A program made the translations under genes and the position numbers. The notes beneath the pieces are model-generated. The model was given only the letters and a program-made list of their open reading frames with translations. It had not been told where the DNA came from and searched no databases. Positions 12,620 through 25,593 of a stretch of 64,000 bases of DNA are shown one piece after another. The number at the start of each line of letters is the position of its first letter. Position 1 is the stretch's first letter. The stretch is from Bacteriovorax sp. BAL6_X (GTDB taxonomy: Bacteria; Bdellovibrionota; Bacteriovoracia; Bacteriovoracales; Bacteriovoracaceae): positions 248,001 through 312,000 of the forward strand of contig NZ_AUMC01000010.1 of the NCBI RefSeq assembly GCF_000443995.1, given 5' to 3'.

Positions 12620-13420
12620 ATGAATTATTTACTTAAAAGTTTTGTAATCTTTAATGAAAACTTAGGCCGTATCTTTATTAAAAATATTGCGGGCCTTGGT
12701 ACGATAATGAATTTTATCGTTAGCTTTTTCTATTGGGCAACTAGAAGGCCTTATCGCTTTAAATTATTTTTTGAGCAGATGGATTTTATTGGCAATAAAA
12801 GTTTATTCATTATTTTTTTGGCCGGATCATTTACAGGAATGGTTATGGCCTATCAGACCTATTTTGGCTTTAAGTTAATAAATGTTGATTCATTAGTTGG
12901 GCCAGTTGTTGCTATTACTTTAGCAAAAGAGCTTGCACCTGTTTTAACAGGACTTATTGTTGCTGGACGTGCAGGAGCAGCAATGGCCGCACAGATAGGA
13001 ACAATGAAGGTGACGGAGCAAATTGATGCTCTAGAAGTTATGGGCATTAGTAGTGTTCAATTTCTTGCCGTTCCAAGAATCGTTGCAGGAACACTTTCAC
13101 TTCCACTACTGTCTATTTTCTTTTTACTTGTTGGAAATATTGGTTCTTATATTGTTGGTACGATTGCATTAAAAATTGATGATGCAATCTATCTCTCAAA
13201 GCTTGGTCAGTTCATGTACGTCTCAGACATCTTTCAAGGGATTATTAAAGCAACAGTATTTGGTTTTGTTATTTCTGTTATTGGTACATACTTTGGCTTT
13301 TCTGTTACAAAAGGGGCCCAAGGTGTAGGTAAGGGAACTAATTTAGCTGTTGTTTGGGGAATGATCTCCGTACTCGTTCTTGACTATTTCTTAACGAGCT
13401 TTTTAGTGCAGGTGATGTAG
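12620..13420 (+). CDS. mlaE: MlaE-type lipid ABC transporter permease
   Basis: Inner-membrane permease of the MCE/Mla phospholipid transport system. The 266-residue protein has five to six hydrophobic segments and the family core GPVVAITLAKELAPVLTGLI followed by GRAGAAMAAQIGTMKVTEQI. It starts the mlaE-mlaF-mlaD set; the ATPase gene begins one base after its stop. There is no clear ribosome site before the ATG. Confidence 0.94.
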   Translation: MNYLLKSFVIFNENLGRIFIKNIAGLGTIMNFIVSFFYWATRRPYRFKLFFEQMDFIGNKSLFIIFLAGSFTGMVMAYQTYFGFKLINVDSLVGPVVAITLAKELAPVLTGLIVAGRAGAAMAAQIGTMKVTEQIDALEVMGISSVQFLAVPRIVAGTLSLPLLSIFFLLVGNIGSYIVGTIALKIDDAIYLSKLGQFMYVSDIFQGIIKATVFGFVISVIGTYFGFSVTKGAQGVGKGTNLAVVWGMISVLVLDYFLTSFLVQVM

Positions 13421-13421
13421 A

Positions 13422-14174
13422 ATGTTACACTTTAAAGATTCGTCAGTAAAAATATCTAATTTAACTAAGACTTTTGGTAAGCATACAGTTTTAAATGATC
13501 TAAGTTTTGATATTGAAAGAGGAAGTATTACTACAATTCTAGGATTCTCAGGAGCAGGTAAGTCAACTCTTTTAAAACATATCTTAGGACTCCATCATCC
13601 AACTTCTGGGAAGATTGAAGTTTTAGGTAAAGATCTTTCCCTCTTAGAAGAGGATGAGCTTAGAAGATTTCGTCAAAATTACGGAATGCTTTTTCAATAT
13701 GCAGCGCTTTTTGATTCTAAAACTACTTATGAAAATGTAGCCTTTCCATTAGAAGAATTTACAAAAATGAGTCCTGAGGAAGTTGAAGAGAAAGTGTTCG
13801 GTTTACTTAAGTCAGTTGGACTTCAAGAAATTTCTTTTGATAAGCTACCAAGCGAACTTTCTGGTGGGATGAGAAAAAGGGTTGGTCTTGCAAGAGCACT
13901 TGCCTTGAGTCCACAAGTAATGCTCTATGATGAACCAACTACTGGTCTGGATCCAATTACGACAAAAATGGTCAACGACTTAATTGTCGATACAGGCCAT
14001 AAACATAAAAATATAGGATTAACGTCAATTATTATTTCTCACGATGTAAAAGCAACGCTGGAAATTTCCGACTACGTTGCCTTCCTGAATCGTGGTAATA
14101 TTGTTGAGTACTTACCTGCAAAAGAGTTTAAAAATTCAAAGCACCCGCTCGTGCAAGAGTTTATAAATCTGTAA
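13422..14174 (+). CDS. mlaF: MlaF-type lipid ABC transporter ATPase
   Basis: Energises the MlaE permease on the cytoplasmic face. Its 250 residues hold Walker A GFSGAGKST (41-49), Q-loop YGMLFQYAALFD, signature LSGGMRKRVGLARA and Walker B VMLYDEPTTGLDP. The gene is separated from mlaE by a single base and lies 28 bases before mlaD. Confidence 0.95.
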   Translation: MLHFKDSSVKISNLTKTFGKHTVLNDLSFDIERGSITTILGFSGAGKSTLLKHILGLHHPTSGKIEVLGKDLSLLEEDELRRFRQNYGMLFQYAALFDSKTTYENVAFPLEEFTKMSPEEVEEKVFGLLKSVGLQEISFDKLPSELSGGMRKRVGLARALALSPQVMLYDEPTTGLDPITTKMVNDLIVDTGHKHKNIGLTSIIISHDVKATLEISDYVAFLNRGNIVEYLPAKEFKNSKHPLVQEFINL

Positions 14175-14202
14175 GTACTAAGCCTAGGGAAGAGGGTTAA
14201 AA

Positions 14203-15573
14203 ATGAATGAATTTAAAGTAGGGTTGATGGCCCTTACTGCCATGATAGCTGTCGTTGTCATGTCACTTGTTGTAACTTCGAATCAATCAGGGTTTGGAAC
14301 TTATAATGAGTATTACACTACGGTTAGCGATGCTTCTGGTATTTTTCCAAAAACGCCAATTAAGGTTGCCGGTATTAATGCCGGTAGAATTAAGGATATT
14401 CGTCTTATTGGGAATAAAGCAGAAATTACTTTTGAAGTTCTTTCAAGAGTAGGGATTACAAAGGGATCTAAGCTTAAGATTCGTTCAGTTGGTTTCCTAG
14501 GGGATAAGTATTTAGAGATTTATATTGAAAACTCAAAAGAAGTACTTCCTGATGGCTCTGAGATTATTGCGGAGGAAAAAGCAGGAATTGAAACTCTCTT
14601 AAAAGATGCAACTGAAGTTATGCAAGATGTGAAAACTCTAGTTGGTAGTATCAAAGAGTCATTTGTTCCTGAAGGTGGTGAACCGGCCATGAAGAAGATT
14701 ATTCGCGATGTTCAGCTTACACTCGAAAATACTCGTGAGATGACGTCGAAGCTAAACGATATGGTTGGGCGAAATAATGAGAAGATTCAAAATATTGTTA
14801 ATAATTTAGAAGCTTTCTCTGATCAGATTGCATATCAGACGGATGCTAATGAGCCAGAAAGTGCTGTCGCGGACGTTAAGGAAATCTTAAAGAAAACAGA
14901 TCGCATGATGGCAGACCTCCAAGACCTTGTAAGAGATATAAAAGATGGGAAGGGAACTGTAGGTAAACTTTTAGTTGAAGAAGAGATAGCTGATGAAGTT
15001 AAAACGACTCTAGCAAGTGTACAAAAAGTTATTGGACGTGTTGATAGTATCCGTACACAGTTTTCTGTTTATACAGGTGCTAATACTGGAACAGGGCAAA
15101 CGGACACAACTGCTGAGCTTAGAATATTTCCTTCACCAGGTCGCTTCTATTTACTTGGTGTAACAACGACTGAGTTTGGACCAGAAAGAAGAAAAATTAC
15201 GGAAACAACAGTTGGTGGAACGACAACTACCGTTGATGAAAAGAAGAGAAAGTATAATGATGTGCTTCTTAATCTTCAGCTTGGGCGACGAATTGATAAT
15301 TGGACGTTTCGTGGTGGTCTAATTGAATCATATGGTGGATTTGCTGTGGATTATAATTTTGATGATTATGGTCTGGTATCGACACTAGAAGTTTTTGATT
15401 ATCGTGAAGATGTAGGGCCAAATATTCGTGTTGGTCTAGATTTACAACTTTGGAATGTACTTTATGGTAAAATCGAAGGTGAGGATTTAATTAATGACCC
15501 ACATGCGGTCTACAGTCTTGGTCTAAAGTTTAATGATGAGGACTTAAAAGGATTTATAGGAATCTTTCTATAG
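14203..15573 (+). CDS. mlaD: MlaD-type MCE protein with extended C-terminus
   Basis: Substrate-binding MCE subunit anchored in the inner membrane. An N-terminal helix (about residues 6-26) is followed by the MCE domain (about 35-115, YTTVSDASGIFPKTPIKVAG), then a helical region (about 120-285). The last 160 residues are rich in alternating aromatic and polar strands (RFYLLGVTTTEFG, LLNLQLGRRIDN, FRGGLIESYGGFAVDY), resembling an outer-membrane barrel-like fold. Its 456 residues far exceed E. coli MlaD (183). The extension could contact the outer membrane; this is inference. GAGGG precedes the ATG. Confidence 0.88.
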   Translation: MNEFKVGLMALTAMIAVVVMSLVVTSNQSGFGTYNEYYTTVSDASGIFPKTPIKVAGINAGRIKDIRLIGNKAEITFEVLSRVGITKGSKLKIRSVGFLGDKYLEIYIENSKEVLPDGSEIIAEEKAGIETLLKDATEVMQDVKTLVGSIKESFVPEGGEPAMKKIIRDVQLTLENTREMTSKLNDMVGRNNEKIQNIVNNLEAFSDQIAYQTDANEPESAVADVKEILKKTDRMMADLQDLVRDIKDGKGTVGKLLVEEEIADEVKTTLASVQKVIGRVDSIRTQFSVYTGANTGTGQTDTTAELRIFPSPGRFYLLGVTTTEFGPERRKITETTVGGTTTTVDEKKRKYNDVLLNLQLGRRIDNWTFRGGLIESYGGFAVDYNFDDYGLVSTLEVFDYREDVGPNIRVGLDLQLWNVLYGKIEGEDLINDPHAVYSLGLKFNDEDLKGFIGIFL

Positions 15574-15587
15574 GATGTAGTAAATAG

Positions 15588-16688
15588 ATGATGGACAATA
15601 GAAATTGGCTAATTCGCACAAAATCAAATAAGATTCTTGGCCCACTTTCGAAACAAAAAGTTATCGAATTTGTTCAAGATGGAACTCTTACGGATGAAGA
15701 TGAAATCTGTAGTGGTAATGGTTATTGGTTTTGGATTAAAGAAGACGACTTATTGAATCGTTACTTATTTGGCGAAGAAGAGCAGAATTTTAATCCGGTT
15801 TCTGAAGCAAAAACGAAGGTGGCCTCTAGTGTAACAAAACTAGTAAAGACTACTGGTATCGTTGATAAGATAAAGGATTTTAAAGAGGATGTTCCATCGA
15901 CACCTCCAACTCCTCAAGTTGAGGCTTCATCGAGTGGAGCGATTTCGATTAGTACAAATGAAGATGATGAAGAGATCGTGTTACCAGAAGATGGTGACCT
16001 CGACTTTCCTGAGCCCATAGATTATAGCAATAACACTCTTCCACAGCACGATGCTCCTGTAAACGCAAGTCCTCTAAAGGATCTGGACTCTGGTGTAAGT
16101 ATGTCAGAAGTTGCTTTGGCCATGAATATTGAAGAGGAAGAAGAGATAATTCTACCATGTAATGATGATTTAGATTTTCCTGATGTTGGTAGTACTCAAA
16201 ATACAATTTCTCTTGAAAAGGAAGAAGAGAGTTCAGCAGGTAGCCAAATTGACCTGCTAGTTGCAGAAGCGGAAGCAGAAGTTAACGTACAAAAAGAGGA
16301 ATCTGAGGCTAAACCTGACCTCGATAATATTGCTGAAGATGCTAGGCTTATACTTGAGAGCGAAAAATTGGCCGATCTACCAAAGTCGGCTCCAGTTTTA
16401 AATGAAGATGAGGATAGTGTTCAGCCTATGAAGGTAGTTGAAATGCCTCGACCTAGAAAAAAGAAAGTTAAGAAGAAATCAGGAAAATCCAAAAAGAAGA
16501 AAAGAAAGAGTGATTATAGCTTCGTTTATTTGGCAATTGGTGTACTCATTATTTTACTTTTCTTTATCTCGAAATTTTATTCGAAATTAGTTGGGAAAGA
16601 TCTTTTCTCTAAGATGCAATTCAAGATGCCGACAACAACTGTTCTTGCTCAAGAATTCCAAGTTGATAAAAAAAAAAGATATTTTTAA
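15588..16688 (+). CDS. GYF_2-domain membrane protein, first part of a frame-broken gene
   Basis: Residues 6-55 fit a GYF_2 domain (NWLIRTKSNKILGPLSKQKV, then YWFWIKEDD). An acidic low-complexity region follows with two copies of a motif of the form EEI(V/I)LP-x3-DLDFP near residues 127 and 187. A lysine-rich stretch (KKKVKKKSGKSKKKKRK) then precedes one transmembrane helix (about 308-330), predicting a cytoplasmic N-terminus. The frame ends just after a run of ten A (16668-16677). Reading one base back there continues without a stop into the next frame, so this is probably the first half of a 730-residue protein. It lies 14 bases after mlaD. Confidence 0.8.
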   Translation: MMDNRNWLIRTKSNKILGPLSKQKVIEFVQDGTLTDEDEICSGNGYWFWIKEDDLLNRYLFGEEEQNFNPVSEAKTKVASSVTKLVKTTGIVDKIKDFKEDVPSTPPTPQVEASSSGAISISTNEDDEEIVLPEDGDLDFPEPIDYSNNTLPQHDAPVNASPLKDLDSGVSMSEVALAMNIEEEEEIILPCNDDLDFPDVGSTQNTISLEKEEESSAGSQIDLLVAEAEAEVNVQKEESEAKPDLDNIAEDARLILESEKLADLPKSAPVLNEDEDSVQPMKVVEMPRPRKKKVKKKSGKSKKKKRKSDYSFVYLAIGVLIILLFFISKFYSKLVGKDLFSKMQFKMPTTTVLAQEFQVDKKKRYF

Positions 16689-16717
16689 ACTTTGTTAATA
16701 TATCTTATAACTTATCT

Positions 16718-17779
16718 TTGAGTGGTGTTGAATATAAGCCGGAGTTTGTAAAATCACCACCTACTAATTGCTCTGATATTTCTAAATTTGAATTTAATTT
16801 AATTTATGCTTTCACAACATCTGGTCAATCTTCAAATCAATGGATTGAATTCCAGACTAAGTGTCAGGAACTTTTTTACTCTGATATAGTTTTAAAGAAT
16901 AAAAGTGAAGTCCGCTCAATGAAGCAGGTTGAAGAGCTGGAAAGTGCTCTCAAGATAAAATTCGATAGTAAGAAAATAGCTCATCAAAAGTTATTAAAAA
17001 AATTAGAAAGAAGCAACTTTCATCAGCTTGTGTTAGAGATTGTTATAGCATCTTCTCTTAATAAGGGAGAATGGCTCACTGGCATTATCATTGACCTTCT
17101 AAAGAGGAATATTGAGCTTTATCCTGTTTGGATAAATAATAATATTCCAAAACAAGCCAGAGCTCGATATGAAGCCGCTCTAATTAGAGTATTTAATATT
17201 ATAAATGACTCAAGTATAGACGAAGTTTATAAATTAATGCTTTTTAAAAAATTTACTCATATCTCTACAGGAGATAGTCGATTAAAGTTAACACAGCTTC
17301 TAAATCAGACATTTGGATCTGCTCTAGAGTTTGATCTATCAAGTTATAAGTTTGGAGTTAAGCTCGCACCGTTTTGGGTCCAAGAGCTTGATGATTTTAA
17401 GATGAAGCAGAAGCTAGTTGAGCGCTATTTTAATACACCTGCTATTCAAGGATTCGATGCTTATGGGAATATTCTATTTGAGTATAATATTCCTAATATT
17501 GGAAAGAAGAGAGATGATTTAATTAATAAAGTAGCGACTTCATATAAGTCTTATAATTTTGAGAAGATGATGGCCTTAATTGTTGGGCTAAGAAATCCTG
17601 TCTTTAAGAGAGAGCTTATTAAGAAAGACTTATTTTTTGAAAGGCCAATCTTTAGTATTGAAAGAACATACTTGGCGAATAAGTTAAGTGAAAAAAATAG
17701 TAGCTGGATTGCGTTTCATTTACTATATCTAGGTCAAAGGGACGAAAATATAATTAAGAATATAATGGTCGATCTATGA
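16718..17779 (+). CDS. C-terminal part of the frame-broken GYF protein
   Basis: 353 residues in the -1 frame relative to the preceding GYF-domain gene. The nominal start is a TTG without any ribosome site, and the frame is open back through the A10 run at 16668-16677, so independent initiation is unlikely. Joined, the sequence runs KKKKIFLNFVNISYNLSLSG across the junction, a plausible strand just outside the membrane helix. The rest is mainly helical and has no recognised family; it would lie in the periplasm. Its stop overlaps the next start by four bases (ATGA). Explanations are a sequencing indel, a mutation, or slippage on the A-run. Confidence 0.7.
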   Translation: MSGVEYKPEFVKSPPTNCSDISKFEFNLIYAFTTSGQSSNQWIEFQTKCQELFYSDIVLKNKSEVRSMKQVEELESALKIKFDSKKIAHQKLLKKLERSNFHQLVLEIVIASSLNKGEWLTGIIIDLLKRNIELYPVWINNNIPKQARARYEAALIRVFNIINDSSIDEVYKLMLFKKFTHISTGDSRLKLTQLLNQTFGSALEFDLSSYKFGVKLAPFWVQELDDFKMKQKLVERYFNTPAIQGFDAYGNILFEYNIPNIGKKRDDLINKVATSYKSYNFEKMMALIVGLRNPVFKRELIKKDLFFERPIFSIERTYLANKLSEKNSSWIAFHLLYLGQRDENIIKNIMVDL

Positions 17780-18363
17780 AAAATATCTTTATCTATCCAA
17801 CTGATACCGTATGGGGAATTGGTGGAAATCCATTTGAAATTGAAACATATGAGTTAATTGCTAAAATTAAGGGGACTTCTATAAATAAGCCCTTAAGTAT
17901 CTTAACAAATGATATACAGAATATAGTCCAAAACTTTCGTGGATCTGAAAGTTTAGATGAATTATTTGATGAGCTTTTTAAGTATCAAATTACAGTTGGT
18001 ATTCCTAAGGCCAGCTTGAAGATTAGCTTTCCATCAGGGCCATTTGATGAAACAAATTATATCTGTTTTCGCGTAATTCAAAATGAGATTATCGATGAAT
18101 GCATAAAGGATTTTCCTGGCTTTATAACTTCTACTAGTTTAAATCTAACTGGTGAAGATCCGATTAGTGACTCTGATGAGGCGAACCTCTTTTGGCAAAA
18201 GCATTGTCCAAAAACAAATTTTATTAGTTCTGAGTACTTAGTTCCAAGTGGTAAATCTTCGACAATTGTATTTATCTCTGGTCTTAGTGCAAAGATTATT
18301 CGTGAAGGTGAGGATATTCAAAATATTCTCAAAACTTTAGATAGGCATGGAATTAATTACTAA
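17776..18363 (+). CDS. Sua5/YciO/YrdC-domain protein
   Basis: Family members make threonylcarbamoyl-AMP for the t6A modification of tRNA, or are paralogues of unknown role. The N-terminal motif YPTDTVWGIG and KGTSINKPLSIL match the nucleotide-binding core, and TSTSLNLTGEDP-like residues near 125 (ITSTSLNLTG) match the S-x-N motif. At 195 residues it is the short, TsaC-like form. It overlaps the upstream frame by four bases and the downstream methyltransferase by 17, so these are cotranscribed. Confidence 0.83.
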   Translation: MKNIFIYPTDTVWGIGGNPFEIETYELIAKIKGTSINKPLSILTNDIQNIVQNFRGSESLDELFDELFKYQITVGIPKASLKISFPSGPFDETNYICFRVIQNEIIDECIKDFPGFITSTSLNLTGEDPISDSDEANLFWQKHCPKTNFISSEYLVPSGKSSTIVFISGLSAKIIREGEDIQNILKTLDRHGINY

Positions 18364-24484: not shown

Positions 24485-24558
24485 ATAGTTGTTCAATTGA
24501 AAGAGAAGTGATACGGTTTTAACTTGTTATGTTAAAGAAAATCTTGGAGAAAGTAGGC

Positions 24559-25593
24559 ATGGCCAAAAAAACTACTAAGAAGAAAACAGCTAAGAAAGCT
24601 GCGAAGAAAACTGCAAAAAAAGTTGCGAAGAAGACAGCTAAGAAAACTACAAAAAAAGCAGCTCCAAAGACAGCTAAAAAGACTGCTAAAAAAGTAGCTA
24701 AGAAAACAGCAAAGAAAGTTACAAAAAAGACTGCTAAAAAAGCGGCAAAAAAAGTAACTAAGAAAGCGGCCAAAAAAGTAGCCAAAAAGACAACTAAGAA
24801 AGCTGCCCCAAAAACAGCAAAAAAAGTAGCCAAGAAAGTTACAAAAAAGGCAGCTAAAAAAGTGACTAAAAAAGTAGCCAAGAAAACAACAAAAGCTTCA
24901 GCAAAGAAAGCAGCAAAGAAAGTGACTAAAGCACCTGCTAAGAAAGTTGCAAAGAAAACAACTAAAAAAGCTGCGGCAAAAACAACTGCTAAAAAAGCAA
25001 CGACGAAACCAACTAAAGCAAAAGCTAAGAAGGAAGAAGTTGTTGAAGAAGTAGTTGAGGTAGAGGAGGAAGCTGTTGAGCTTCAGCCAGAACTTTTTGA
25101 AGAAGAAGTAGAAGAGATTGAGGAAGCAATTATTCCTGAAGAGGAAGAGGTTGTTATTAAAAAGACTCCACTTCCATCGTCAGAAGAAGAGAAAGTAGAA
25201 GAAGTATTTAGGCTTGCAGAAACTTTAGACTACTTCCTTGGAGACACAGATGAGTGTTTAGCAAAGGGATGTGATAATCCTGCAACAACTGCTGGCTTCT
25301 GTCGTCTTCACTATATTGGATATTGGAAAGAGATCAAAAATAAAATCTCTATTCTTGAAGAAGGAATGCTTCAAAAATATGTAAAAGAGATTATTGGTAA
25401 ATATCCTGTAAAAGTAATCGATGAGGTCTTAAAGGATCTTAGTGACGATAAATCATTCGTTGATGTTCTTCGTGAGATGGATATCGAAGCGGATGAGAGC
25501 TTTGACGAAGTTGATGACATTGATGCAGAAGACGATCAAGATATCGCTTTCGAAACTAAGTCATCTGTTAAAGCTATTATGGACGAAGAATAG
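24559..25593 (+). CDS. Histone H1-like lysine/alanine-rich protein with Cys3His module
   Basis: Probably binds DNA through its first 155 residues, which consist of AKKxxKK-type repeats like the tails of histone H1 and AlgP. An acidic segment follows (about 160-215), then a compact C-terminal part with Cys233, Cys238, Cys248 and His251 (spacing C-x4-C-x9-C-x2-H), a possible zinc site, followed by helices. The start MAKKTT is preferred over an ATG 30 bases upstream since GGAG lies before it and the paralogue at 40073 begins likewise. It may compact the chromosome; this is inferred from composition only. Confidence 0.85.
   Translation: MAKKTTKKKTAKKAAKKTAKKVAKKTAKKTTKKAAPKTAKKTAKKVAKKTAKKVTKKTAKKAAKKVTKKAAKKVAKKTTKKAAPKTAKKVAKKVTKKAAKKVTKKVAKKTTKASAKKAAKKVTKAPAKKVAKKTTKKAAAKTTAKKATTKPTKAKAKKEEVVEEVVEVEEEAVELQPELFEEEVEEIEEAIIPEEEEVVIKKTPLPSSEEEKVEEVFRLAETLDYFLGDTDECLAKGCDNPATTAGFCRLHYIGYWKEIKNKISILEEGMLQKYVKEIIGKYPVKVIDEVLKDLSDDKSFVDVLREMDIEADESFDEVDDIDAEDDQDIAFETKSSVKAIMDEE

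Follow-up and report, generated by a model that had tools for sequence, protein, structure and literature searches.

The window analysed here, the whole stretch of 64,000 nucleotides from Bacteriovorax sp. BAL6_X, carries a split gene on its forward strand, directly downstream of mlaE, mlaF, and mlaD (12620–15573, +; Pfam MlaE, ABC_tran, and MlaD). This is where a sequence-only reading of the same DNA had placed it. The gene order is alr, mlaE, mlaF, mlaD, the split gene, a Sua5/YrdC-domain gene, a methyltransferase gene, and lptE, with the names alr, methyltransferase, and lptE being presumptive and taken from the sequence and general knowledge. Elsewhere in the window, positions 24529–25593, 3' of an acyl-CoA dehydrogenase gene, encode a Lys/Ala/Thr-rich repeat protein with a histone H1-like N-terminal tail and an acidic part.

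The zero frame of the split gene (15588–16688, +) encodes a short product of 366 residues. It comprises a GYF domain (residues 4–76; 15597–15815, +), which is better conserved across the class than any other part of the gene, followed by acidic repeats, a Lys-rich cluster, and a single membrane helix just behind this cluster, YSFVYLAIGVLIILLFFISKF (16515–16577, +), with a hydropathy of 2.54 over 19 residues. The sequence VLA/Q (16641–16652, +), an instance of a conserved (A/V)xAQ motif, lies just 5' of a run of ten A (16668–16677, +) that is read GAT AAA AAA AAA A in the zero frame. Eight bases separate this run from the TAA stop (16686–16688, +) that terminates the short product. The −1 frame, by contrast, continues for 367 residues (16676–17779, +) up to a TGA at 17777–17779, and joined reading across the run gives a protein of 363 + 367 = 730 residues. 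The continuation, with predicted beta strands followed by about 20 helices, would form the periplasmic domain of a long product, and the segment between its two invariant cysteines (16769–16864, +; TGC 16769–16771, TGT 16862–16864) probably spans a disulphide. The run, the early stop, the open −1 frame, the membrane helix, and the size of the joined protein all stand as the sequence-only reading had given them. The Sua5/YrdC-domain gene (17776–18363, +) begins within the stop of the −1 ORF, its ATG overlapping the TGA (ATGA), so that its translation may be coupled to that of the long product, and hence to slippage.

The GYF domain had also been proposed from the sequence, and here the fold stands but the family assignment by profile does not. 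Pfam GYF_2 scores 12.5 bits, below its gathering cut-off of 25.8, but the predicted model of the domain (pLDDT 89) has GYF domains as its best ten matches in the PDB (TM about 0.54–0.63, E 0.01–0.15, probability 0.89–1.00), and it matches the GYF domains of GIGYF1/2, SMY2, and Myxococcus GltJ. An alignment of 50 sequences contains 18 invariant columns. Of 129 genomes of the class, 121 carry the domain, as do 72 of the 73 good ones. On its predicted fold, the N-terminal domain is thus a divergent GYF-like domain.

The locus was fetched from about 120 genomes and 80 named records. As the latter belong to Bacteriovoracaceae, Halobacteriovoraceae, and related bins, the class is taken to be Bacteriovoracia. 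A search of relatives with the C-terminal part returned orthologues in the same genus and family, and in genomes G001, G003, G010, and G015 the zero frame stops at or just after a KKK encoded by a run of 9–10 A, with a homologous C domain following in the −1 frame. Sixty-four distinct split junctions behind the membrane helix were collected by demanding a run of 8 or more A, a count that leaves out L056. A −1 shift is needed at 63 of them, and +1 at the remaining one (L124). Their uninterrupted runs count 9 A in 9 genomes, 10 in 45, 11 in 6, 12 in 3, and 14 in one. Split genomes differ in the codon phase at the run, yet nearly always need the same shift. More than 60 related genomes, among them few-contig assemblies and records from named isolates, keep the split at the homologous position, and its surroundings are kept with it (mlaD upstream in 59 of 64 loci and lptE downstream in 61, several of the exceptions being contig ends). 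In a tree of MlaE and MlaF from 89 loci, both deep branches retain the −1 split, and parsimony places it at the root of the class with 21 changes, against 22 or 23 for the other root states.

Two criteria for transcriptional slippage can be compared with these data. The overlapping-ORF organisation and the run are both kept in non-identical homologues, which is the hallmark used in an earlier survey (PMC1088944), and the ORF junction carries a run of at least 9 A, namely A10 in the window gene and A9–A14 in all 64 junctions. Within the same 3.23-Mb genome, 73 other runs of at least 9 A were examined, a few near contig ends being left out, and none splits a gene as the A10 run does. The split also recurs in more than 60 further genomes, so that chance does not account for it. 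Comparison across the class shows that selection maintains the split, its position and direction, and its uninterrupted run, and that reading of the −1 frame sets in at the run.

The region past the run behaves as part of a protein in its substitution pattern: in its first 40 codons, 14 pairs of related genomes differ by 126, 84, and 300 substitutions at codon positions 1, 2, and 3, respectively. By this measure, the −1 frame evolves as a coding sequence, and does so from the earliest codons of the domain. The first ATG in that frame typically lies 60–70 codons past the run, and in the window gene a TTG at 16718 is the earliest start codon of any kind. For the C domain, neither a conserved start nor a conserved ribosome site was found, an SD-like motif accompanying the first start codon in 5 of 64 cases, which bears out the earlier remark that the −1 frame has neither a good start nor a ribosome site. 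An internal start was rejected on this ground as a conserved mechanism for making the C domain. The AlphaFold2 model of the domain (mean pLDDT 87.5; 62 sequences) has beta strands at residues 2–4, 8–15, and 18–25, directly after the junction. The predicted fold thus sets in at the junction itself, and translation from a later start would truncate it. A confident PDB relative was found neither with Foldseek, nor in a second look at the Foldseek candidates (VIA), nor with a sequence profile, although such an absence proves nothing. The domain matched no family in Pfam or NCBIfam, and a scan of the genome contigs with the window's C domain alone gave no match.

Across 62 C domains, no residues other than two cysteines, C33 and C64, are invariant, a pattern that fits a disulphide and an oxidising compartment. 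In the (A/V)xAQ motif preceding the run, alanine occupies position −1 in all 62 cases found, position −3 is alanine or valine in 58 of 62, and position +1 is glutamine in 58. This motif resembles a signal peptidase I site, which suggests cleavage. Because it lies far from the membrane helix (a median of 23 residues past it), release of the C domain by signal peptidase is offered as a suggestion only.

At the codon level, the run is synonymously protected. Lysine codons inside the runs are AAA in 190 cases and AAG in 3, whereas 64% of those elsewhere in the same genes are AAA. Synonymous-codon shuffles predict 24.7 ± 3.6 runs of at least 9 A between the helix and the junction, against 64 seen, run statistics of this kind being partly conditioned on the run by the way the junctions were collected. 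Such runs are avoided in other places: the C domain contains 5 where synonymous shuffles predict 15.7, and the neighbour genes contain 9 where 18.2 are predicted, as would be anticipated if slippage on them were real and usually harmful. At split junctions, the zero-frame stop follows a median of 3 codons beyond the run, where stop-codon density would predict a mean of 12.8. A second programmed site 5' of the helix was also considered and rejected: a run of at least 9 A occurs there in 28 cases among the 64 genomes, against 26.6 by synonymous shuffles, which is no commoner than lysine content predicts and gives no sign of selection.

Several lineages of the class depart from the −1 arrangement. 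At least 11 genomes are in frame at the junction while keeping A9–A10 there (L051, L054, L077, L092, L133, L143, L156, L158, L160, L161, and L287), L092 being a member of the window's own genus; slipping in these genomes would yield the short form. Canonical junctions that keep at least 9 A thus divide into 63 in the −1 state, 11 in frame, and 1 at +1. At least 6 more lack a run of 9 and are likewise in frame (L046, L056, L057, L084, L093, and L099). In genus g14 (L104–L116), for which 13 genomes were sampled and the gene was typed in 11, only the short form is encoded: the frame ends with ILNKPLPV and a stop immediately behind the membrane helix, and the locus lacks the periplasmic domain. 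Relatives with two separate genes, each with its own start, would have spoken against a single split gene according to the sequence-only reading. They turned up in only four genomes (L068, L080, L090, and L120), where the start of the separate C-domain gene reads like a signal peptide ending in A-Q, and they look derived, since parsimony places the −1 split at the root. Taken with the in-frame genomes that have no run of 9, these four indicate that slippage is not indispensable.

Frame breaks are also found at other places in the gene. The break lies before the helix in a few genomes, with −1 needed in L056, L057, L100, and L163 and +1 in L101; the upstream sites of L138 and L052 likewise need +1. 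L138, L052, and L103 have two frame breaks per gene at A9–A12 runs, one on each side of the helix. In L118, L190, and L296–L298 (genus g61), a −1 break at A9–A10 sits inside the C domain. The gene of L053 (G004) shows several frame changes and stops in the C domain, and is either decayed or badly assembled.

These observations can be brought together in a simple scheme. Standard decoding would give an inner-membrane-anchored GYF protein that stops a few codons past the run. As RNA polymerase slips on runs of at least 9 A, a share of the transcripts would gain one extra A, and these would put the ribosome in the −1 frame and lead to the long form, in which a helical, disulphide-bearing periplasmic domain is added. 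We consider it probable, from the comparison of sequences, that programmed slippage at the A run, with RNA polymerase as the likeliest agent, lets one gene make two proteins. We infer that it is the polymerase and not the ribosome that slips, that both products build up, and that the ratio between them is important.

Error, mutation, and programmed slippage had been the three options named at the outset, and it is slippage that the comparison of homologues supports. Homopolymers are the usual place for sequencing errors, and a true A11 in the window's isolate, or else a recent frameshift mutation, would account for the split in a single genome. The same split is nevertheless present in dozens of independently sequenced genomes, with runs of 9–14 A and nearly always the same shift, so that error and recent mutation are rejected as general explanations and retain a practically negligible probability. 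A second possibility is phase variation, in which replication slippage at the run would toggle the periplasmic domain between cells. Homopolymer tracts of 9–14 A are typical contingency loci, and the frame can differ between close relatives, such as L092 and L095 or L160 and L150. Drift between states, however, predicts that both off-states are equally common, and the distribution of 63 : 11 : 1 is far from parity; the −1 state is moreover ancestral and retained class-wide. Phase variation was rejected on this frame distribution, which makes it very improbable.

The closest competitor to polymerase slippage is programmed −1 ribosomal frameshifting, which would make the same two proteins from the same run. 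The slippery heptamer A_AAA_AAA is contained in every run, SD-like motifs upstream of the run are slightly in excess (12 of 64, 6.7 expected), and the direction is nearly fixed at −1, a fixed direction being regarded as a sign of ribosomal frameshifting, and shifts both ways among homologues as one of transcriptional slippage (PMC3711429). All three count against the polymerase. A ribosome would need only 7 bases, yet no split junction in the set has fewer than 9 A. The 70 nt past the run contain no stable hairpin, hairpins being the only structures considered (mean z −0.37, with 5 of 64 below −2), and the canonical junction of L124 and the upstream sites of L101, L138, and L052 need +1. Slippage at the A11 of tssM1 mainly adds A (RNA with 10–15 A; PMC4256274) and would favour −1 by itself. 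With the avoidance of runs of at least 9 A elsewhere also on the side of the polymerase, we favour RNA polymerase over the ribosome as the source of slippage and consider ribosomal frameshifting unlikely.

The mechanism itself is already known, whereas the gene, the depth of its conservation, and the set of natural variants appear to be new. Frameshifting on experimentally tested poly-A cassettes was 63% with 11 A, 40% with 9 A, and 10% with 7 A (PMC3711429). The tssM1 gene of the type VI secretion system of Citrobacter rodentium undergoes programmed transcriptional slippage at A11, with RNA of 10–15 A and two protein lengths that are both needed (PMC4256274). As proposed for the split gene, the C-terminal domain of this inner-membrane protein is translated only once slippage has occurred at a poly-A run beside a zero-frame stop, with two length variants per gene and no stimulatory RNA signals found. 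The two proteins are unrelated, however, and the conservation described here is class-wide, over dozens of genera. Both products of tssM1 and the need for both were measured, whereas comparison is what points to two products of the split gene. Poly-A slippage also underlies the tau and gamma products of dnaX in Thermus and others (summarised in PMC3711429), where a run of about 9–10 A likewise leads to a long and a short product of a non-mobile gene. In Thermus dnaX, slippage gives the truncated product (PMC1088944), whereas here it would give the long product in most genomes, with the opposite polarity in the 11 in-frame ones. Transposases of IS elements, finally, use transcriptional slippage on at least 9 A (PMC1088944). 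The split gene shares with them a conserved pair of overlapping ORFs and a conserved run of at least 9 A in the overlap, and differs from them in being a chromosomal gene with fixed synteny and an almost fixed direction. In a survey of 108 genomes, conserved cases of poly-A slippage were found almost only in IS elements (PMC1088944). In the literature covered, a search on programmed frameshifting in Bacteriovorax or transcriptional slippage in Bdellovibrio returned nothing relevant, and the searched text of two surveys does not mention these organisms, an absence that is no proof of novelty.

Outside the class, related forms of the gene are found without the split. Genomes of the Bdellovibrio type (L329–L331) carry, next to the mla genes, an unbroken GYF-TM gene whose C region is TPR-like and whose product has about 590 residues in L329 and L330. 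These two share with the split gene the GYF domain, the membrane helix, a helical-repeat C region, and adjacency to mlaEFD, and differ in consisting of a single unbroken ORF without an A run. Their C region gave no match to the profile of the Bacteriovoracia C domain, so homology is not detectable by this comparison. Bd0075 of Bdellovibrio, studied as a predation-essential protein (PMC12034629), has a similar GYF-TM-TPR plan, the comparison being one of domain plan. The remaining families of the phylum have just a GYF-TM protein, of 164–264 residues. Long-only and short-only versions therefore both exist outside the class, while most of the Bacteriovoracia appear able to make both forms from one gene.

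A possible extension of polymerase slippage, which we put forward tentatively, is that it acts as a switch, ancestral and class-wide in a non-mobile envelope gene, that sets the ratio of a GYF anchor to its periplasmic partner. Selection would then keep the ratio and not merely the long protein, and the partner may be freed by signal peptidase at (A/V)xA/Q. Such a switch would explain why in-frame lineages keep A9–A10, and why relatives show the short form, the fusion, and the two-gene form. Since gene callers tend to report either two proteins or a pseudogene, annotations of the domain past the run are probably wrong in these genomes. Dependence on poly-A slippage is known for few chromosomal genes, and the gene described here is kept across a whole class that includes predatory genera, at a fixed place beside the Mla lipid-transport genes. 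With in-frame, short-only, and two-gene relatives as natural controls, it is a clean system in which to ask whether the ratios of proteins in the cell envelope are set by slippage.
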